The position numbers and the translations under genes are program-made. The notes under the pieces are model-generated. The model was not told the DNA's origin, searched no databases, and saw only the letters and a list, made by a program, of their open reading frames with translations. Below are positions 8,124 through 47,770 of a stretch of 64,000 nucleotides of DNA, one piece after another. The DNA is from Lutibacter flavus (GTDB lineage Bacteria > Bacteroidota > Bacteroidia > Flavobacteriales > Flavobacteriaceae): NCBI RefSeq assembly GCF_900188355.1, contig NZ_FZNX01000006.1, positions 124,001 to 188,000 of the forward strand, given 5' to 3'. Position 1 is the first letter of the stretch, and each line of letters starts with the position of its first letter.

Positions 8124-9200
8124 TTATTTTACGTTGTGCTGAATATTTATTGACTCAACGTGAATGGCTTTGAATACTTCTTCAACAAACTCAACACTTA
8201 AGCCTTTACTTTCACCCATTGTAATCATTGCTGATAAAATATCAGACCAACGTCCGCTTTGTAAAATAGCCACATTTTCTTGATGTTTTAGTTTACCAAT
8301 ATTCTCGGCAACACCCATTCTGTCACTTAAAATATCAATAATATTACTATCAATTAAATCTAATTCTTTACGGTATAAATTTAATTTACTTTGAAAACTT
8401 TCTTTTGAGCTGCTTTTTTGACGAATTCTCAAATCTTTTGTGATTTGATCTAATTGTGCCGGTGTAATTTGCTGTGCAGCATCACTCCAAGCATTGTCTG
8501 GATCTATATGAGTTTCAATCATAAATCCATCAAAATTTAAATCTAGAGCAGTTTGAGAAACGTCTAAAATAGTATCTCTACGTCCACAAATATGAGATGG
8601 ATCTAAAATTAAAGGTAAATCTGGAAATTCTTTCTTTAATTCAATTGCAATATGCCATTTTGGTTTATTTCTATAATGACCCGTATTGTATGCTGAAAAT
8701 CCACGGTGAATCACTCCCAATTGTGAAATTCCATTCGCTTGAAAACGCTCAACTCCACCTAACCATAAAGCTAAATCTGGATTTACCGGGTTTTTCACTA
8801 AAACTGGTTTATCAACACCTTTTAATGCATCTGCAATTTCTTGAACAGCAAACGGATTAACAGTTGTTCTTGCTCCAATCCACAAAATATCAACATCAGC
8901 TTTTAAAGCAAGCTCTACGTGGTTGGCATTTCCAACTTCAGTGGTAATTTTCATGCCAGTTTCTTCCCTAACTCTTTGTAACCAAGGCAATCCAATACCT
9001 CCAACACCTTCAAATCCTCCTGGTCTCGTTCTTGGTTTCCAAATACCTGCTCTAAATACATTTGTATCTGTATCTTTTAATAAATGAGCTGTTTTTAATA
9101 CTTGTTCTTCTGTCTCTGCGCTACAAGGACCAGCAATTACTAATGGGTGATCTAAACCCATATTATCTAACCACTGTCTGTTTTTTTTTGTAATTTCCAT
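8124..9200 (-). CDS. Bifunctional DAHP synthase / chorismate mutase
   Basis: A 358-residue fusion enzyme. Residues about 1-260 are a type I-beta DAHP synthase (KDO8P-synthase-like barrel), recognised by VIAGPCSAE at 21-29, FRAGIWKPRTRPGGFEG, LVKNPVNPD and DPSHICGRRD. It condenses phosphoenolpyruvate with erythrose 4-phosphate, the first shikimate-pathway step. Residues about 265-350 are an AroQ-type chorismate mutase helix bundle (LNLYRKELDLIDSNIIDILSDR), which makes prephenate. The fusion joins entry and branch point of Phe/Tyr synthesis. It is the last gene of the attenuated operon pheA-aminotransferase-tyrA-this gene, 42 bases after tyrA. Confidence 0.93.
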   Translation of the reverse strand: MEITKKNRQWLDNMGLDHPLVIAGPCSAETEEQVLKTAHLLKDTDTNVFRAGIWKPRTRPGGFEGVGGIGLPWLQRVREETGMKITTEVGNANHVELALKADVDILWIGARTTVNPFAVQEIADALKGVDKPVLVKNPVNPDLALWLGGVERFQANGISQLGVIHRGFSAYNTGHYRNKPKWHIAIELKKEFPDLPLILDPSHICGRRDTILDVSQTALDLNFDGFMIETHIDPDNAWSDAAQQITPAQLDQITKDLRIRQKSSSKESFQSKLNLYRKELDLIDSNIIDILSDRMGVAENIGKLKHQENVAILQSGRWSDILSAMITMGESKGLSVEFVEEVFKAIHVESINIQHNVK

Positions 9201-9242: not shown

Positions 9243-10091
9243 TTATTTTAACCCGTTCAATATGGATTTAATATAGTTTGTATTGTTCATTGATTCTTTT
9301 AATCCTTCTTCGTTATTATTTTCAATCAAATCTTTAAATTCCTTTAAATTTTTAATATACTCATTTAAAGAATTAATGATATTGTCTTTGTTTTCTAAAA
9401 ATATTGGAGTCCAGGTATTTGCTGAACTCTTTGCCAAACGTACTGTTGAAGCAAACCCAGTACTTGCCATATCAAAAATTGCTTCTTCATTTTTTTCAAT
9501 TTCCAATACTGTTTTCCCAAGCATAAAAGAACTTACATGTGATAAATGAGAAACATAAGCAATATGTCTGTCGTGCTCTATAGGATTCATCATTTTAATT
9601 CGCATATTTAATTTTTTAAAGATGCTAATAGCTTTATCCAAGATTCTCCAATCTGTTTTATCTGCTTCACAAATAATATTAACCTTATCGTCAAATAAAT
9701 TTAAAATAGCCGCTTCTGGTCCAGAAAACTCAGTTCCTGCCAATGGGTGAGCCGCTACAAAATTCTTGCGTTTTGAATGATTTTCAACCGCTTTACAAAT
9801 TTCATTTTTAACTGATCCCACATCAAAAACCAATGTTTCATTTGAAACAACATCTAACACTTTTTGTGTTAATTTTGGTATTATATTTACTGGTACTGCA
9901 ATTATAACAATATCAGCTTCTGATAATTCAGAAAAACTAATTTCAGCATCAATTACACCAAGTTCAATTGCTTTTTTAACATGAGTTGGATTTTGATCAA
10001 TACCATATACTTTAAAATCCCCTCGCTTTTTTAAATCTAAAGCTAATGAACCTCCAATTAAACCTAACCCAACAACAACTATTTTTTCCAT
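9243..10091 (-). CDS. tyrA: Prephenate dehydrogenase TyrA
   Basis: A 282-residue NAD-dependent enzyme that converts prephenate to 4-hydroxyphenylpyruvate for tyrosine. The Rossmann motif GLGLIGGS is at residues 8-15. The catalytic-site signatures AAHPLAGTEFSGP (near residue 114) and DRHIAYVSHLSH (near residue 174) are intact. It lacks a C-terminal ACT domain, so feedback control probably acts elsewhere, for example by the leader attenuator. One base separates it from the aminotransferase upstream. Confidence 0.93.
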   Translation of the reverse strand: MEKIVVVGLGLIGGSLALDLKKRGDFKVYGIDQNPTHVKKAIELGVIDAEISFSELSEADIVIIAVPVNIIPKLTQKVLDVVSNETLVFDVGSVKNEICKAVENHSKRKNFVAAHPLAGTEFSGPEAAILNLFDDKVNIICEADKTDWRILDKAISIFKKLNMRIKMMNPIEHDRHIAYVSHLSHVSSFMLGKTVLEIEKNEEAIFDMASTGFASTVRLAKSSANTWTPIFLENKDNIINSLNEYIKNLKEFKDLIENNNEEGLKESMNNTNYIKSILNGLK

Positions 10092-10092
10092 G

Positions 10093-11250
10093 TTAAATTT
10101 TTACAGTTGTTAATCTATTAAGTACTTCGGTCAACACATTTTTATCTACACATAATGAAGCCCTAATATAACCTTCACCATTCGATCCAAAAATTGTTCC
10201 TGGAGTTATAAATACATTTTTAGTATATAATAATTCATCTGTTATTTCCTCAGATTTAATACCTTCTGGTAATTTTGCCCAAACAAATAAACCGCCAATA
10301 TTTTTATTATAAGTGCAGTTTAATGAGTCAAAAATCTCCCAAACTAAAGATCTTCTTTCTTCGTAAATTTCATTTTGAGATTTAAACCAATCTTTTGATA
10401 GTTTAAATGCCTCCACAGCTCCTTTTTGAATTCCATAAAACATTCCAGAATCCATATTACTTTTTACTTGTAAAATTGTTTTTATTATTTCTGCATCGCC
10501 AACAACCATTCCCACTCGCCAACCTGCCATATTAAAAGTTTTACTTAATGAATTCAATTCAATAGCAACTTCTTTTGCTCCTTCAACCTCAAGAATACTT
10601 AGCGGTTTTTCATTTAAAATAAAGCTATATGGATTGTCATTTACAATTAAAATCTGGTGCTTTTTAGCAAATGTAATAAGTTGTTTAAAATCTTCTTTTG
10701 AAGCTACTGCCCCAGTTGGCATATGTGGATAATTAATCCACATAATTTTAACATTTTTCAGATCCTCTTTTTCAAGCTCTTCAAAATTTGGCAACCAGTT
10801 GTTTGCGTCATTTAAATTGTACAAAATAGATTCTGCTTCAACTAAATTTGTAACTGAAGCATATGTTGGATACCCAGGGTTTGGTATTAAAACTTTATCT
10901 CCTTTATTTAAAAATGCCAAAGAAATATGCATAATTCCCTCTTTTGATCCCATTAAAGGTAAAATTTCTGAATTTGCATTTAAAATAACTTTGTATTTAT
11001 CTTTATAAAAATTACTGATGCCTTCGCGCAACTCAGGAATTCCTTGATAACTTTGATATTGATGTGCATTTGGTATATCTACTGCAGTTTTAATTGCATT
11101 AATTACACTTTTAGGCGGATTTAAATCTGGACTTCCAATTGCAATATTAATTACTGGTTTTCCTTCATTTCTTAAAGCCGCTACTTCTCTCAATTTTTTT
11201 GAGAAGTAGTATTCTTTTACATCGTTTAATCTATCAGCTTTTGTTATCAT
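10093..11250 (-). CDS. Class I/II PLP aminotransferase (aromatic operon)
   Basis: A 385-residue fold-type I aminotransferase. The PLP lysine is Lys237 in NSLSKTFNMAGWRVG, and the PLP-contacting NDNPYSF is near residue 204. The start ATG overlaps the pheA stop as TAATG, indicating translational coupling. Lying between prephenate dehydratase and prephenate dehydrogenase, it most likely transaminates phenylpyruvate and 4-hydroxyphenylpyruvate as the last step to Phe and Tyr. A prephenate or aspartate aminotransferase role is also possible. Confidence 0.88.
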   Translation of the reverse strand: MITKADRLNDVKEYYFSKKLREVAALRNEGKPVINIAIGSPDLNPPKSVINAIKTAVDIPNAHQYQSYQGIPELREGISNFYKDKYKVILNANSEILPLMGSKEGIMHISLAFLNKGDKVLIPNPGYPTYASVTNLVEAESILYNLNDANNWLPNFEELEKEDLKNVKIMWINYPHMPTGAVASKEDFKQLITFAKKHQILIVNDNPYSFILNEKPLSILEVEGAKEVAIELNSLSKTFNMAGWRVGMVVGDAEIIKTILQVKSNMDSGMFYGIQKGAVEAFKLSKDWFKSQNEIYEERRSLVWEIFDSLNCTYNKNIGGLFVWAKLPEGIKSEEITDELLYTKNVFITPGTIFGSNGEGYIRASLCVDKNVLTEVLNRLTTVKI

Positions 11251-12068
11251 TATCTTTTACCTTTATTATATTCTCCTAACACTTTTAAAATCTCTACTTT
11301 TTCTTTAACCTCGGATAATGCATTGAAATAATCGGCATAACTATTAAAAATAAAATCAGCAAAAAAAGCATATTTCCAAGGTGTTTCTATAACAGGCATA
11401 GATTGTATTTTAGACAAGTTTAAATTGTGTTTTGCTAAAATTGATAAAACCTCAGCCAAGCTTCCCGTATCATTACTTGTAATAAATTTAATTGATGCTT
11501 TATTTGCAGAAACACTGCTTTTATCTTTATCATTTGTTAAAATAAAAAATCGCGTTGCATTTTCTTTAATAGTTTGAATTTCCGGAGCTATCACCTCTAA
11601 ATTATAAGTTTTTGCCGCAAGATTACTTGCAATGGCTCCAACCCCTTTTAAATTATTATCCTGAATTCTTTTAGCAACTGAAGCCGTATCCTTATCTTCA
11701 ATTAATTTGATATTTGGATAGTCTTTAAAAAATTTATGGCATTGTAACAATGCCATAGGATGTGAATATACTTCATTAATGTCTTCAATTTTCTGTCCTT
11801 TTAGACCCATTAAATTATGGTGAATTGCTAAATGAAATTCTCCACAAATAGTTAATTGATGATCATCAATAAGTGCGTAATTTGGTAGAATAGCCCCTGC
11901 AATTGAATTCTCAATTGCCATAATAAGCACATCCGCTTTTTTATCAATCAATAAATTGGGCATTTCAGTAAAAGACAAACATTCTAATAAATCAATGTTT
12001 TTACCAAAATACTCTTCAGCCACTATATGGTGAAAAGACCCTTTTATACCTTGAATTGCTACTTTCAT
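11250..12068 (-). CDS. pheA: Prephenate dehydratase PheA (with ACT domain)
   Basis: A 272-residue enzyme that converts prephenate to phenylpyruvate. Residues about 1-180 are the dehydratase domain, with the essential Thr-Arg-Phe at 172-174 in ENATRFFIL. A C-terminal ACT domain follows (IKFITSNDTGSLAEVL onward). The usual ESRP allosteric motif of the ACT domain reads QSMP here, so Phe binding may differ from the enterobacterial enzyme. No chorismate mutase is fused to it; that activity is supplied by the last gene of the operon. It is the first structural gene after the leader peptide and attenuator. Confidence 0.93.
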   Translation of the reverse strand: MKVAIQGIKGSFHHIVAEEYFGKNIDLLECLSFTEMPNLLIDKKADVLIMAIENSIAGAILPNYALIDDHQLTICGEFHLAIHHNLMGLKGQKIEDINEVYSHPMALLQCHKFFKDYPNIKLIEDKDTASVAKRIQDNNLKGVGAIASNLAAKTYNLEVIAPEIQTIKENATRFFILTNDKDKSSVSANKASIKFITSNDTGSLAEVLSILAKHNLNLSKIQSMPVIETPWKYAFFADFIFNSYADYFNALSEVKEKVEILKVLGEYNKGKR

Positions 12069-12084
12069 TTTTTAATTAATTGTC

Positions 12085-12112
12085 AAAAAAAAATCCCGAA
12101 ATAATTTCGAGA
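12085..12112 (-). terminator. Attenuator terminator in the pheA leader
   Basis: On the minus strand TCTCGAAA (12112-12105) pairs with TTTCGGGA (12101-12094) around a UUA loop: eight pairs with one G-U. It is followed at once by nine U residues (12093-12085). It sits only 17-44 bases before the pheA start codon and after the leader peptide, so it can only act as a premature terminator of the operon. Confidence 0.88.
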
Positions 12113-12154
12113 CTTTATAATTTATATTTTGTTAAACAACACATACAAAGCCTC
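12109..12154 (-). promoter_or_regulatory. Predicted antiterminator of the pheA leader
   Basis: On the minus strand GAGGCUUU (12154-12147) can pair with AAAGUCUC (12116-12109): eight pairs with one G-U, extendable inward by three more pairs, G-U, U-A and A-U. Its right arm shares bases 12112-12109 with the left arm of the terminator, so the two folds exclude each other. Its left arm overlaps the leader-peptide stop codon, so a ribosome at the stop would cover it. Confidence 0.75.
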
Positions 12155-12215
12155 ATCCTTTATTGTTAAAATAAAAGTAAAAATAGAAGCTATTCCAAGT
12201 GTTATTAGTTATCAT
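12153..12215 (-). CDS. Phe/Tyr leader peptide of the aromatic operon
   Basis: A 20-codon open frame on the minus strand from ATG at 12215 to TGA at 12153. Codons 10-16 read Phe-Tyr-Phe-Tyr-Phe-Tyr-Phe, preceded by a Trp at codon 7. A ribosome starved for Phe or Tyr would stall at 12188-12168, leaving the antiterminator arm at 12154-12147 free. A ribosome that reaches the stop codon covers that arm and lets the terminator form. A near-perfect promoter lies just upstream. This is the classical layout of ribosome-mediated attenuation, but with mixed Phe/Tyr codons matching an operon that makes both amino acids. There is no Shine-Dalgarno sequence, as usual in this phylum. Confidence 0.85.
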   Translation of the reverse strand: MITNNTWNSFYFYFYFNNKG

Positions 12216-12234
12216 AATTATCTAAATATGAGCA

Positions 12235-12264
12235 CAAATCTATACATTAATTTTAAAAAACCAA
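12235..12264 (-). promoter_or_regulatory. Promoter of the aromatic operon
   Basis: On the minus strand TTG (12264-12262), 19 bases, then TAGATTTG (12242-12235): an exact match to the Bacteroidota promoter pattern TTG-N19-TAnnTTTG. The expected transcript start near 12229 lies about 14 bases before the leader-peptide ATG. Confidence 0.8.
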
Positions 12265-13845: not shown

Positions 13846-14583
13846 ATGTTATCTTTTTTCAAAAAAAAAACACCTCTTATAAAACATTTTCCTTTGGATT
13901 TTGTAGACATACATTCTCACTTGTTGCCAAACATTGATGACGGCTCCAAAAGTTTTGAAGAATCAGCTAGTTTAATAAAAAGGCTAAATAGTTATGGTAT
14001 TAAGAATTTTGTTGCTACACCTCATATAATGGATGGTGTATGGAATAATACTTCATCTATAATTCAAACCAAACTTTATGAATTAACTGATTATTTAAAC
14101 AAACAAGGAATTAAAGATATACAAATAAGGGCAGCTGCTGAATATATGTTAGATTCTAATTTTGAAAAATTATTGTATTCAGAAAAATTACTAACTATTA
14201 AAGATCAATTTATTTTAGTTGAATTTTCATACATCAACCCTCCAATTAATCTAAAAGAAATACTATTTAATATTCAAATTGCCGGATACCAACCAATTTT
14301 AGCACATCCAGAAAGGTATTCCTTTTTTCATACCAACTACAAAGAGTATTCTAAATTAAAAGAAGCTGGTTGCCTTTTTCAATTAAATTTACTCTCTTTA
14401 TCCTCTTATTATGGATCTAATGTTAATAGGATAGCAAAGCAATTATTAAAAGATAATTTAATTGATTTTGCTGGTACTGACACACACCACCACAGGCATT
14501 TAAATGCTTTAGAAACTATAAATAACCCAAAGCTCATAAATCTTATAAAACCGGTTTTAGAAAATAATGCTAAGTTGCTTTAA
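13846..14583 (+). CDS. YwqE/CpsB-type PHP-family protein-tyrosine phosphatase
   Basis: A 245-residue cytoplasmic metal-dependent phosphatase of the PHP fold. Metal-binding motifs are visible in order: DIHSHLLPNIDDGS (His23, His25), ATPHIM, AAAEYM, ILAHPERY and GTDTHHHRH near the C-terminus. In other bacteria this family removes phosphate from the tyrosine cluster of the Wzc-type kinase and so tunes polysaccharide export. Here the kinase gene lies directly opposite, with 14 bases between the stop codons, so the pair is almost certainly cognate. Confidence 0.9.
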   Translation: MLSFFKKKTPLIKHFPLDFVDIHSHLLPNIDDGSKSFEESASLIKRLNSYGIKNFVATPHIMDGVWNNTSSIIQTKLYELTDYLNKQGIKDIQIRAAAEYMLDSNFEKLLYSEKLLTIKDQFILVEFSYINPPINLKEILFNIQIAGYQPILAHPERYSFFHTNYKEYSKLKEAGCLFQLNLLSLSSYYGSNVNRIAKQLLKDNLIDFAGTDTHHHRHLNALETINNPKLINLIKPVLENNAKLL

Positions 14584-14597
14584 ATAAAATTAATACT

Positions 14598-16949
14598 CTA
14601 ACCTAAAAAAGGAAGTAATTTTTGCCACCATTTTTTTGGTTTAATCTCTTCGGTATATCCATAGCCGTAGCCATAACCATAGCCGTAGCCTCTTTCTAAA
14701 TCCGTGTCATTTACTAAAACCGCCATATTAGGCAATCGCTTCTCCAAATACAATTTATTGGGGATTTCAAGCAAACGTTTATCTAAGAAATTCGCTCTAA
14801 TAACATAAATGAACAAATCTGCCTGTTGACTAAATAACAGCGTATCAGTTACAATATTAATTGGAGCGGTATCTACAATAACATAATCGTAATTCTCTTT
14901 TCCATATGCTAGAACTTCTTCAAAACGGCCATTCATTAATAATTCTGAAGGATTAGGTGCCACAATACCAGATTCCAAAATATCGAAACTAGTTTCTTTA
15001 AATTGTTCAATAACATCTGAAGCCTTCAATGTTTTATCCATTAAAAAGTGGGAAAGTCCTTTTTTTGTTGATTGTATATTTAAGTAAGCTGCAATTTTTG
15101 GTTTTCTTATGTCTCCACCAATTAGTAATACTTTTTTATTTGTTAATGCTAAAACAGATGCTAAATTAATAGCTATAAAGGTCTTCCCTTCTCCACCTAA
15201 AGTAGATGTTATAAAAATTGTTTTAGTTTTGCCTTTTATACTAGAAAGCATAAAATTAACATTGGTTCTTAACAATCTAAAGGATTCTGCTGTACTATCC
15301 CTGTCATTGTCTGAAATTACAACTTTCTCCTCAGATTTTGTTTTAGGAATATCGCCTAAAATTGGGGCTTTAACAACGGCTTCTACATCTTTTCTCGTAT
15401 GGACTTTGTTATCTAACAAGAACATTATGTACAAAATTGCAAAAGGTAAAATCGAACCAATTAATAAGGCAGCTAAATAAAACATTCTACGATTTGGAGC
15501 AACTGGATAATTACTTCCATATGCCTTATCAATTATTTTAGCATTTGGAACAGTAACAGCCATTGAAATCGAATTTTCCTCTCGTTTTTGCAATAAATAC
15601 AAATACAACGCTTCAATAATTTGTTGTTGACGTTGAATATCTCTAAATTCTCTCTCTATTTTAGGTACAGAAGCAATTTTTGATGAAATTCCAATCTCTT
15701 GTCTTTTCAAATCATTTAAAGAGATTGTCATTGAAGACTTTAGATTTAATAAACTTTGGTTAATGTTCTCCCTTAACCTTAATAATTGTTCCTCTAAATT
15801 TATAATAACAGGATTTAATTTACTTGAACTTTTTAAAATTCGATTTCGTTCCAATAATAAATCATTAAATTTTTGAGTGCTTTGATTTAAGGAAACATCA
15901 GACATGCCCAAATTTGAAGGAATAAATTCTTCCACATTAGAATTTACATAATCGTTTACATAATCAACTAATTTTAGTTGTGTACCCAGTTCAATAATGT
16001 TTTTTTCTAACTCCGTTTTGGATTGCAATGCAATTCCAGCTTCAGAAGTTATATCTGTTAATCTATTTTTTGTTTTGTAATTTTCGGCTCCAGCTTCTAC
16101 AATTGCCAAATCTTTATTAATTACATCAATTCTTTCATTAATAAAATTAAATGTATTTTTTGCAATTAAATTTTTATCTTTAACTACATCCTTATTGTAT
16201 TGATATACTAAATAATCTAAAATAGCTTCAGCCTTTTTAAGTACACGATCTTTTAAGGTTAATTTTAAGACACTCGAATTATTTAAAACTTGTATTTGAA
16301 CGCTATTTTTATACCTGTTTGCAACGGCTATTACAGGTAAAATTCTAACAATTATTTCTTCATCAGGTGCAACAATTCCAATTTTTTCAGGAGTAATAAT
16401 TATTTCACCAAAATTAGTTTCAATTTTTTCTCCAAAAGAAAACTGATTACTTTTTATTCCCTCTACAAAAATAAAACTTGAATCGGTTTTTGTTATAATT
16501 GAGAATGAGGTACTTAAAGCAAATAATTTTGAATCATCAATTAAAAAATTGATTTTATATGGAGCATTTTGAACAAATATTTCGGAGTCATATACGCGTC
16601 CTTTTTTAAAAAATTGTACATTTATTCCTAAATCTTTTACAACTCTTTCAAATAAACTTCTTGATTTAAGTAATTCTATTTCGTTTTCTAAAGATTTATT
16701 AGAGCTTCCTATTAATCCCAAATCCTTAAATGCTGATAATTCATTATTTTCTTTGTCGCCAATTAAAATAGTTGTTGATGCCGCATACTGATTTGGCGTA
16801 TAACGTAAATACGTTTTTACGGCAATCAATGCAATTACAATACTAATTACAAACCATTTCCAATAATAAGAATACCTTTCAAGTTCCTCACGAATGTTAA
16901 TACTATCTTCGTTAAAATTTACAGGGGTTAATTGCTTATTTTCTTCCAT
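14598..16949 (-). CDS. Polysaccharide co-polymerase / BY-type tyrosine kinase (Wzc)
   Basis: A 783-residue inner-membrane protein. It has an N-terminal membrane segment (about residues 32-48), a large periplasmic Wzz-like domain with coiled coils, a second membrane segment near residue 490, and a cytoplasmic kinase domain. Walker A is GGEGKT at 585-590 (Lys589), Walker A' has Asp613 in GGDIRKPK, and Walker B has Asp693 in VIVDTAP. The C-terminal tail carries six tyrosines alternating with glycine at 755-765, the autophosphorylation cluster. It controls chain length and export with the Wza lipoprotein encoded four bases upstream. YwqE, encoded opposite, is the expected phosphatase. Confidence 0.94.
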   Translation of the reverse strand: MEENKQLTPVNFNEDSINIREELERYSYYWKWFVISIVIALIAVKTYLRYTPNQYAASTTILIGDKENNELSAFKDLGLIGSSNKSLENEIELLKSRSLFERVVKDLGINVQFFKKGRVYDSEIFVQNAPYKINFLIDDSKLFALSTSFSIITKTDSSFIFVEGIKSNQFSFGEKIETNFGEIIITPEKIGIVAPDEEIIVRILPVIAVANRYKNSVQIQVLNNSSVLKLTLKDRVLKKAEAILDYLVYQYNKDVVKDKNLIAKNTFNFINERIDVINKDLAIVEAGAENYKTKNRLTDITSEAGIALQSKTELEKNIIELGTQLKLVDYVNDYVNSNVEEFIPSNLGMSDVSLNQSTQKFNDLLLERNRILKSSSKLNPVIINLEEQLLRLRENINQSLLNLKSSMTISLNDLKRQEIGISSKIASVPKIEREFRDIQRQQQIIEALYLYLLQKREENSISMAVTVPNAKIIDKAYGSNYPVAPNRRMFYLAALLIGSILPFAILYIMFLLDNKVHTRKDVEAVVKAPILGDIPKTKSEEKVVISDNDRDSTAESFRLLRTNVNFMLSSIKGKTKTIFITSTLGGEGKTFIAINLASVLALTNKKVLLIGGDIRKPKIAAYLNIQSTKKGLSHFLMDKTLKASDVIEQFKETSFDILESGIVAPNPSELLMNGRFEEVLAYGKENYDYVIVDTAPINIVTDTLLFSQQADLFIYVIRANFLDKRLLEIPNKLYLEKRLPNMAVLVNDTDLERGYGYGYGYGYGYTEEIKPKKWWQKLLPFLG

Positions 16950-16953
16950 AGAA

Positions 16954-17709
16954 TTAACGTGTTATAATCAGTATTAATGACAGAAGAGCTGAGGCAATAG
17001 AAATTAATGAAGAGGTAGTGCCAATTGCAGATGAATTTACTTTTGCTTTGTTTGGTTCCACATAGATTATATCATTTTGAGCTAAATAAAAATATGGCGA
17101 CTTAAAAATCGATTGATCTGTTAAATCCAACCTGATACTTTCCACTTTTTCACCACTTTTTCTAATTAATAATATATTCTTTCTTTTTCCTTGTATTGTT
17201 AAATCCCCTGCCATACCAATTGCTTCTGGAATTGAAATACTTCCATTATCAAGTTTAAATGCGCCCGGGCTCCTTACTTCGCCCAGAACTGTAATTCTAA
17301 AATTCTCTAATTTTATGGTAACAATTGGTTCTTTTACAAATAACTTTAAAGATGTGATTAGTTTATTTTTTAATTCATTAGTTGTTAAACCCACAACATT
17401 AATTTTTCCCAACTCTGGAAAGGTAATATCTCCACTTAAATCCACTAAATATGTAATTTGATTTGTAGCACTTGAAAGCCCGCTACCTTGATACAAATTA
17501 TAAGGCTTTACAGATTCTGGTTCAGAAGCACTTACAGTAATACTTAAAATATCATCAGTTTGAATTCTAGGTGCATAATTCTTCAATAACTCATTGGTTA
17601 TTAACTCATCATTTTGAAAATAAATCATTTTCTTTTTAGACACGCAAGAAGTGATCAATACCATTAGAAAAAATACAAATATAAATTTGAAGATGTAACT
17701 ATTTTTCAT
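16954..17709 (-). CDS. Polysaccharide export lipoprotein (Wza-like, SLBB domain)
   Basis: A 251-residue outer-membrane lipoprotein with lipobox LITSC (Cys22). The polysaccharide export motif region starts near residue 50 (RIQTDDILSITVSASEPE), and the SLBB repeat includes ENFRITVLGEVRSPGAFKL near residue 130. A hydrophobic C-terminal segment (about 230-250) is typical of Bacteroidota homologues. It forms the export channel partnered by the Wzc co-polymerase encoded immediately downstream. Confidence 0.92.
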   Translation of the reverse strand: MKNSYIFKFIFVFFLMVLITSCVSKKKMIYFQNDELITNELLKNYAPRIQTDDILSITVSASEPESVKPYNLYQGSGLSSATNQITYLVDLSGDITFPELGKINVVGLTTNELKNKLITSLKLFVKEPIVTIKLENFRITVLGEVRSPGAFKLDNGSISIPEAIGMAGDLTIQGKRKNILLIRKSGEKVESIRLDLTDQSIFKSPYFYLAQNDIIYVEPNKAKVNSSAIGTTSSLISIASALLSLILIITR

Positions 17710-47675: not shown

Positions 47676-47693
47676 TATTTACAATCTTTTCTT

Positions 47694-47770
47694 GTGTTAG
47701 CGATTGCGGCGGTATCCTTTTTATAGGGTAAAAAGATTAAGCCAAAAGCGCGACCTGAAAGGTAACACCC
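47694..47770 (-). repeat. Dispersed intergenic element, copy 2
   Basis: Read on the minus strand it begins GGGTGTTACCTTTCAGGTCG and ends ATCGCTAACAC, matching copy 1 (30697-30774) at both ends. The centre differs and holds its own small hairpin (CTTTTTA...TAAAAAG). It is 77 bases long against 78 in copy 1. Confidence 0.72.

Follow-up and report, generated by a model that had tools for sequence, protein, structure and literature searches.

A predicted ribosome-mediated attenuator with mixed Phe/Tyr control codons in front of the aromatic operon of Lutibacter flavus and other Flavobacteriaceae

Attenuation by a leader ribosome works only if the ribosome keeps pace with the RNA polymerase. In the enterobacterial pheA leader the run of control codons consists of Phe codons only, and the trp leader of E. 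coli contains Trp-Trp codons and follows the 1:2, 2:3, and 3:4 pairing logic. The element described here is located on the minus strand of a 64,000 nt stretch of the Lutibacter flavus genome (NZ_FZNX01000006.1, positions 124,001-188,000; in the following called the window, to which all coordinates refer). It resembles the enterobacterial pheA system (Phe_leader, RF01859) in combining a leader peptide element with a terminator before pheA. However, it differs by its mixed Phe/Tyr run, by a Trp codon that is present in 85 of 124 leaders of the family and that fits the DAHP synthase encoded in the operon, by the operon composition pheA-aminotransferase-tyrA-aroG, and by the absence of a Shine-Dalgarno sequence. 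The window element aligns to positions 1-125 of the 125 positions of the Phe_leader model and scores 17.9 bits (E 1.4; cut-off 55), and it scores 17.4 versus 41 bits with Trp_leader (RF00513). The E. coli-type trp leader resembles the Trp-Trp and Trp-Trp-Trp leaders that we found before aroG and before a trpE-like gene. Bacteroid-trp (RF01692), a candidate RNA motif of the same phylum that we take to be a trp leader, concerns another amino acid and another operon, and it has no match in the window at the gathering cut-off of 49 bits or in the whole genome at E 0.001. Because the Rfam cut-offs are not reached, the element is placed neither in the Phe_leader nor in the Bacteroid-trp family. At gathering cut-offs the window contains one tRNA and one Flavo-1 motif and nothing else, and thus no T-box, riboswitch, or other described cis-regulatory Rfam family at the element. 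With loose thresholds the stretch yields 12 sub-threshold hits, of which those to Phe_leader and Trp_leader, and to a trpB motif, are relevant. Scoring below every Rfam cut-off, the element could become a new Rfam family.

According to the covered portions of a study from 2010 (PMC2965389), leader-peptide systems had to its authors' knowledge been shown only in Proteobacteria and Actinobacteria, with the atypical ermC leader as exception, and the study itself adds one such system in bacilli. Excerpts of other papers list Bacteroid-trp as a Bacteroidetes motif (PMC2864571), report leader-peptide-like ORFs in B. thetaiotaomicron (PMC7366714), and cite a comparative attenuator survey from 2010 (PMC4833913). 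For F. psychrophilum, the portions considered of a paper from 2021 (PMC9723704) give clues to leader-peptide attenuation upstream of amino-acid operons and report structured 5' elements upstream of pheA and hisG that are conserved in other genera and have no Rfam match. At the family level its pheA element is very probably the same as the one found here; in the text portions covered it is described without leader sequence, codons, arms, or mechanism. A detailed account of a Bacteroidetes pheA leader was not found in the open full-text literature, and the survey from 2010 may hold an earlier prediction. The kind of regulator is therefore already known, namely an ordinary ribosome-mediated attenuator. 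New are its anatomy, the covariation, the spacing, the class-wide spread, and the switching of codons, and what stands out is the depth of conservation without Shine-Dalgarno initiation, the ribosome-length spacing, and the control codons that match the gene.

The leader is preceded by a candidate promoter consisting of a TTG (12262..12264), presumably the -33 element of a Bacteroidetes-type promoter, and a -7-like TAGATTTG (12235..12242) at a distance of 19 nt. This pair is present as originally described and is the weakest part of the original prediction, with the spaced pair TTG-N17-21-TANNTTTG found upstream of just 19 of the 124 family leaders (1.5 in shuffles) and TANNTTTG itself upstream of 28. 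Within the Lutibacter group, TANNTTTG precedes 28 of 29 leaders and the spaced pair 16 (29 of 31 loci were counted; L136 and L140, with leaders more than 300 nt upstream, were left out). A scan of the window for sigma-70-type promoters was uninformative (48 sites versus 56.2 expected). The leader ORF extends from the ATG at 12215 to a TGA (12153..12215) and encodes the 20-codon peptide MITNNTWNSFYFYFYFNNKG, in which codons 10-16 (12168..12188) are Phe-Tyr-Phe-Tyr-Phe-Tyr-Phe, the seven consecutive aromatic codons that had been predicted. The Trp codon at position 7 (12195..12197), which the original prediction did not mention, is a possible additional control codon. The leader has no Shine-Dalgarno sequence; among the relatives a Shine-Dalgarno-like motif precedes 1 of 124 family leaders, and 97 of them have an A at -3.

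The leader stop codon is overlapped by arm 2 (GAGGCUUU, 12147..12154), the 5' arm of the antiterminator. It can form eight complementary pairs, one of them G-U, with arm 3 (AAAGUCUC, 12109..12116), which confirms the two arms as proposed. Arm 3 is common to the antiterminator and to the intrinsic terminator hairpin that it forms with arm 4, so that the two structures (2:3 and 3:4), both located before the first gene, are mutually exclusive. The terminator had been placed at 12112-12094; the hairpin is there, and according to the terminator scan it is longer, comprising 12 pairs and extending from 12116 to 12090. It is followed by the expected nine U (nine T at 12093-12085), at which the attenuated RNA would end. 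The 185-nt region folds better than 200 of 200 dinucleotide shuffles (z -2.67). The pheA gene starts 16 nt downstream of the U tract and encodes a prephenate dehydratase with an ACT domain (11250..12068; PF00800, E 9e-55, and PF01842), whose closest named relatives are from Lutibacter (89% identity to L. litoralis). It is followed on the same strand by a class I/II aminotransferase overlapping it by 1 nt (10093..11250; PF00155, E 5.1e-61), by the prephenate dehydrogenase tyrA after a 1-nt gap (9243..10091; PF02153 and PF20463), and by aroG-CM, a DAHP synthase fused to a chorismate mutase, after a gap of 42 nt (8124..9200; PF00793 and PF01817). The Pfam domains agree with the operon content on which the suggested service to both Phe and Tyr was based.

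To describe the distribution of the leader, G and L numbers are used for the genomes and loci of our samples. Among 149 Flavobacteriaceae genomes, 130 contain pheA. A strict definition of the leader (ATG-started ORF with at least six Phe/Tyr codons in nine, within 300 nt upstream of pheA) applies to 123 of these 130 genes, and to a mean of 1.4 per 130 after dinucleotide shuffling. After inspection the leader is present at 127 of the 130 genes: the leader of L114 has five Phe/Tyr codons, one below the strict threshold, that of L041 is cut by the contig end with run and arms still visible, and in L049 and L089 it is located 394-655 nt upstream of pheA. Inspection of the upstream regions did not reveal a leader in the remaining three (G023, G128, and G035). 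The set of 124 leaders does not include L041, L049, L076, L089, L098, and L119, which have fewer than five Phe/Tyr codons within 300 nt, and three of which have a leader. In a second set of 63 flavobacterial loci with upstream sequence, some of them from genomes also present in the first set, all 63 have the leader (58 pass the strict test, three start with GTG, and two have the leader further upstream), and none was found at nine Desulfovibrio-type pheA loci. In the MAG loci L163, L164, and L165, GTG replaces ATG as the start codon of the aromatic leader. We searched 100 whole genomes with a covariance model derived from 58 of the leaders. The model matches at pheA in 81 of the 84 genomes that contain this gene, and it has a single match in the genome of the window, at 12085-12188. 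It finds nothing in 14 of the 16 genomes without pheA, the other two being G033 and G042. Ten matches away from pheA were inspected, leaving aside the eleventh, which is a second contig copy in G048. Two are new leaders, before aroG in G033 and before phhA in G042, and no aromatic leader was seen at the other eight. In a Lutibacter MAG (L140:4821-5000) two tandem copies of a 90-nt repeat are located between terminator and pheA, and similar inserts were noticed by eye in L136, L137, L138, L144, L153, and L155.

Both stems are supported by comparison. A terminator-type hairpin with a T tract is present in all 124 leaders, and the duplex of arms 2 and 3 has a mean energy of -12.1 kcal/mol versus -5.9 with the arm-2 side shuffled. 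Covariation was determined from 58 of the 124 leaders, each representing a different arm haplotype, that were aligned with MAFFT. Compensatory changes occur in seven of nine terminator pairs (covariation score 0.394; at most 0.153 in slid controls) and in seven of eight antiterminator pairs (0.378; at most 0.130 in slid controls). In the antiterminator 78% of the alignment cells are paired, which is in part due to an imperfect alignment of arm 2, and two of five covariation measures are within the reach of shuffles (double-change pairs in 44 of 500, pair types in 17 of 500). When the best-matching 6-nt core of arm 2 is compared with arm 3 in 121 leaders (L003, L023, and L028 were left out), a choice of core that favours pairing, it pairs fully in 93, over five of six positions in 27, and over four of six in one. 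If arms are swapped between genomes with differing arm 3, full pairing is obtained in 20% of the sampled swaps versus 77% for the own arms. All these counts and scores, for covariation as well as for pairing, are uncorrected for phylogeny. The alignment of the upstream regions of pheA in relatives had been set beforehand as a check of the original prediction, and it turned out that the aromatic run is kept and that both stems covary.

Arm 2 starts 7-12 nt past the last aromatic codon in 113 of 124 leaders (14% for shuffled arms), most often at 10 nt (52 of 124). With the footprint known from E. coli, this is about where the front edge of a ribosome would be when its A site holds that codon. 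We modelled the 124 leaders by folding transcripts that end before arm 4 and are masked by a ribosome. The predicted mean probability of the antiterminator is 0.62-0.74 as long as the A site has not passed the last aromatic codon. When this codon occupies the A site the mean is 0.646, and it falls to 0.214 and 0.05 after one and two further codons and to 0.025 at the stop codon. For the window the modelled values are 0.69-0.70 before the last aromatic codon, 0.54 at this codon, 0.63 and 0.38 at the next two, and at most 0.01 from codon 19 onward. If 12 nt are covered, the first base of arm 2 is free in 67 of 124 leaders at the last aromatic codon and in 1 of 124 one codon later, and in the model the exact cut depends on the footprint assumed. 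With the ribosome at the stop codon, the modelled antiterminator probability still exceeds 0.4 in four of the 124 leaders, and in a few long leaders this codon is located well beyond arm 2. Folding the full leaders at equilibrium does not yield any switching (mean terminator probability 0.944 without ribosome, 0.935 with the ribosome at the last aromatic codon, and 0.955 at the stop). Since the terminator prevails in the complete transcript wherever the ribosome is placed, switching must be co-transcriptional. Before arm 3 emerges, arm 2 is paired upstream with a mean probability of 0.757 versus 0.457 for shuffled upstream sequences (above 0.5 in 116 of 124 leaders; 0.89 in the window), which suggests a protector hairpin. 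In the window this 1:2 hairpin is likely formed by arm 1 (12186..12206), which in the folding model pairs with 12154-12135. Without a ribosome the cut transcript still has an antiterminator probability of 0.50 on average and 0.69 in the window.

Taken from sequence, the four-gene aromatic operon is under the control of a ribosome-mediated transcription attenuator of the classical type with a probability of roughly 0.93. This reading, which was also that of the original prediction, is strongly supported by the comparison with relatives, where leader and both stems are conserved and covary and the spacing is of ribosome length; these parts, their conservation and covariation, the spacing, and the gene-matched choice of codons can be read directly from the sequences. 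From them we infer that the promoter is active, that a ribosome translates the leader, stalls, and is coupled to the polymerase, that transcription is terminated, and that the operon responds to amino acids. The ribosome would trail the RNA polymerase through the leader ORF and, when Phe-tRNA or Tyr-tRNA and probably also Trp-tRNA are short, would stall in the aromatic run. Its front would then halt just short of arm 2, which could pair with the emerging arm 3, so that no terminator would form and the operon would be transcribed. With all tRNAs charged the ribosome would reach the stop codon and cover arm 2, arm 3 would pair with arm 4, and transcription would be expected to end at the U tract near 12085.

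The leader is not restricted to the family. A sample of 119 genomes of the class contains 31 with prephenate dehydratase, of which 28 are outside the family, and 27 loci were examined (L204 was left out as a family member, and no locus was available for G169). Of these 27 loci, 18 have a leader ORF with six or more Phe/Tyr codons in nine within 350 nt, which is a raw count without a shuffle baseline, and the other nine do not have such an ORF within this distance. The terminator scan finds a hairpin in 14 of the 18 leaders. In 13 of these, at most 10% of the shuffles reach the match of arm 2, compared with 21% in L226. No hairpin was picked up by the scan in the remaining four; by eye, L225, L228, and L229 show a T-tracted hairpin with a matching arm, and L224 does so less clearly. 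Several of the arm sequences are unlike those of the family, and thus the class leaders represent largely independent examples.

The control codons change with the gene that follows. In the pheA-less genome G033 the Phe/Tyr model matches before a stand-alone DAHP synthase-chorismate mutase gene (leader MTNNNTWWSNSKFYLKR). In total 19 pheA-less genomes were available, of which G057, G079, and G136 were left out for weak DAHP-synthase matches. Upstream of the DAHP synthase, six of the remaining 16 have a Trp-Trp leader that starts with ATG and precedes a T-tracted hairpin, and in a seventh, G101, the leader contains one Trp. Such a leader ORF was not found upstream of the DAHP synthase in the other nine, among which G116 has no upstream sequence. 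Except for that of G033, which was detected by the Phe/Tyr model, these leaders were found upstream of aroG without any codon model (G027, G054, G073, G074, G078, and G101). Their arm 2 match is weaker, with equal or better shuffles in 1-14% for five of them and in 60% for G073. It is located 22-31 nt past the Trp codons, and thus the DAHP-synthase leaders do not share the tight ruler of the pheA leaders. The tyrA gene is absent in all seven leader-bearing pheA-less genomes searched. In G062 the tyrA match covers only residues 226-281, and therefore the missing pheA may be an assembly gap there. A second RNA model, built from the seven DAHP-synthase leaders and searched in 397 genomes, has 35 matches, of which 26 were inspected. 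The 13 strong ones, the seven and six new, are all located before DAHP synthase, and none of the 13 genomes contains pheA (PF00800). The 13 weaker ones comprise five trpE-like leaders, three matches at pheA, and five without clear leader. As six of the seven seed leaders contain Trp-Trp, the six new DAHP-synthase matches and the five trpE-like ones are biased towards Trp-Trp. In this sample, partly chosen by a Trp-Trp model, 12 of the 13 DAHP-synthase leaders, in seven of eight genera, have Trp-Trp, each with a terminator-like hairpin before the stand-alone DAHP synthase-chorismate mutase gene (L335 in G033, L336, L337, L339, L340, L341, L384, L388, L389, L392, L393, and L394). Trp-Trp is found in none of the 124 pheA leaders (Fisher 2e-16 by genome and 7e-11 by genus, both under model selection). 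In one genus (G033 and G376) the Trp-Trp leader still resembles a Phe/Tyr leader that has decayed (TWWSNSKFYLKR beside TWNSFYFYFYF). Leader ORFs with Trp-Trp-Trp precede a gene that we take to be trpE (L395, L396, L398, L400, and L402).

The other pheA-less match of the Phe/Tyr model, in G042, precedes a Biopterin_H gene (PF00351; leader MKNLNNTYYYYPILTRRIGQ), which is taken for a phenylalanine hydroxylase. Close relatives of this protein (E at most 1e-40) are encoded in 9 of 397 genomes, and apart from that of G042 the hydroxylase leaders were found through the protein alone. Four of the nine genes have leaders with four to five consecutive Tyr codons (G042, G380, G465, and G291, the last starting with GTG), the leader of G089 is Tyr-rich, and the other four genes have no leader. 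The corresponding loci, each with a leader ORF and a terminator-like hairpin, are L306, L372, L373, L374, and L378, the last with the Tyr-rich leader. The hydroxylase match of G380 spans one in-frame TAG. Three of the five genomes with hydroxylase leaders (G042, G380, and G089) do not have pheA, and in G465 and G291 there is also a pheA operon that includes tyrA and is headed by a separate Phe/Tyr leader.

The same parts could be explained differently. The run has a very high T content, and RNA remains unpaired over U-rich stretches. It could be possible that the run does not provide control codons but is an unstructured RNA element, such as a site at which a ribosomal protein, Rho, or a helicase loads, followed by a terminator that is constitutive or regulated otherwise. 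However, the last nine codons of the run comprise, over the 124 leaders, 870 Phe/Tyr codons and a single other TWN codon (TTG). Thus, 870 of the 871 TWN codons end in T or C and there is no TTA, TAA, or TAG, meaning that Leu and stop codons are avoided in frame; a reading as U tract only was rejected on these third bases. In addition, TGG and AAC codons break the U tract, the frame is kept together with its start (ATG, or GTG in L163-L165) and stop codons, and a U-rich element would not require Trp-Trp or Tyr runs before other genes. An unstructured element is therefore very unlikely. A leader of the same build might also sense translation in general, through ribosome traffic or antibiotics, instead of specific aromatic amino acids. 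This would agree with the model, in which arm 2 becomes free wherever the ribosome stalls up to the end of the run (mean 0.62-0.74). It is hard to reconcile with codons that differ by gene, Trp-Trp being found in 0 of 124 pheA leaders versus 12 of 13 before stand-alone DAHP synthase (partly selected by the model) and runs of four to five Tyr before four of nine phenylalanine-hydroxylase genes, and general sensing is accordingly improbable.

The ends and lengths of the leaders vary, and termination is here predicted from sequence. Both would be compatible with a hairpin that simply terminates a transcript coming from upstream or from the antisense strand, or with an ORF that is the gene of a small functional peptide, without any switching. 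However, arm 2 covaries with arm 3 in seven of eight pairs although it is located outside the terminator, and the residues outside the aromatic run are little conserved among the 124 leaders, which argues against a functional peptide. We give a locus without switching next to no chance.

Returning to the attenuator, we lean towards the view that a single aromatic attenuator that can be retuned is present in the Flavobacteriaceae and probably in much of the class. Where the Phe/Tyr branch has been lost, a Trp-Trp leader would stand before DAHP synthase, and where Tyr can be made from Phe by phenylalanine hydroxylase, that gene could gain a leader with a Tyr run. The control codons would re-evolve towards the amino acid that is served while the plan of leader and terminator is kept, without Shine-Dalgarno initiation. 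If true, this implies a close coupling of transcription and translation in the phylum. The deep conservation of the leader and its spacing of ribosome length provide evidence that such coupling exists in bacteria without Shine-Dalgarno pairing, and the leader offers a simple reporter for testing it. The changes between Phe/Tyr, Trp-Trp, Trp-Trp-Trp, and Tyr runs represent a natural mutagenesis series for the evolution of regulatory specificity. Leader codons may also predict amino-acid needs from genomes; in our sample, Trp-Trp before DAHP synthase accompanies the loss of pheA.

Two further observations concern the window outside the operon. The Flavo-1 RNA (RF01705), a motif of unknown function, is located at 47692-47759 on the plus strand and scores 42.4 bits with a cut-off of 42. 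At 13846-17709 there is an apparent polysaccharide-export cluster, whose ORFs we take to be a CpsB-like phosphatase-type protein, a Wzc-like kinase with the tail GYGYGYGYGYGY, and a Wza-like lipoprotein.
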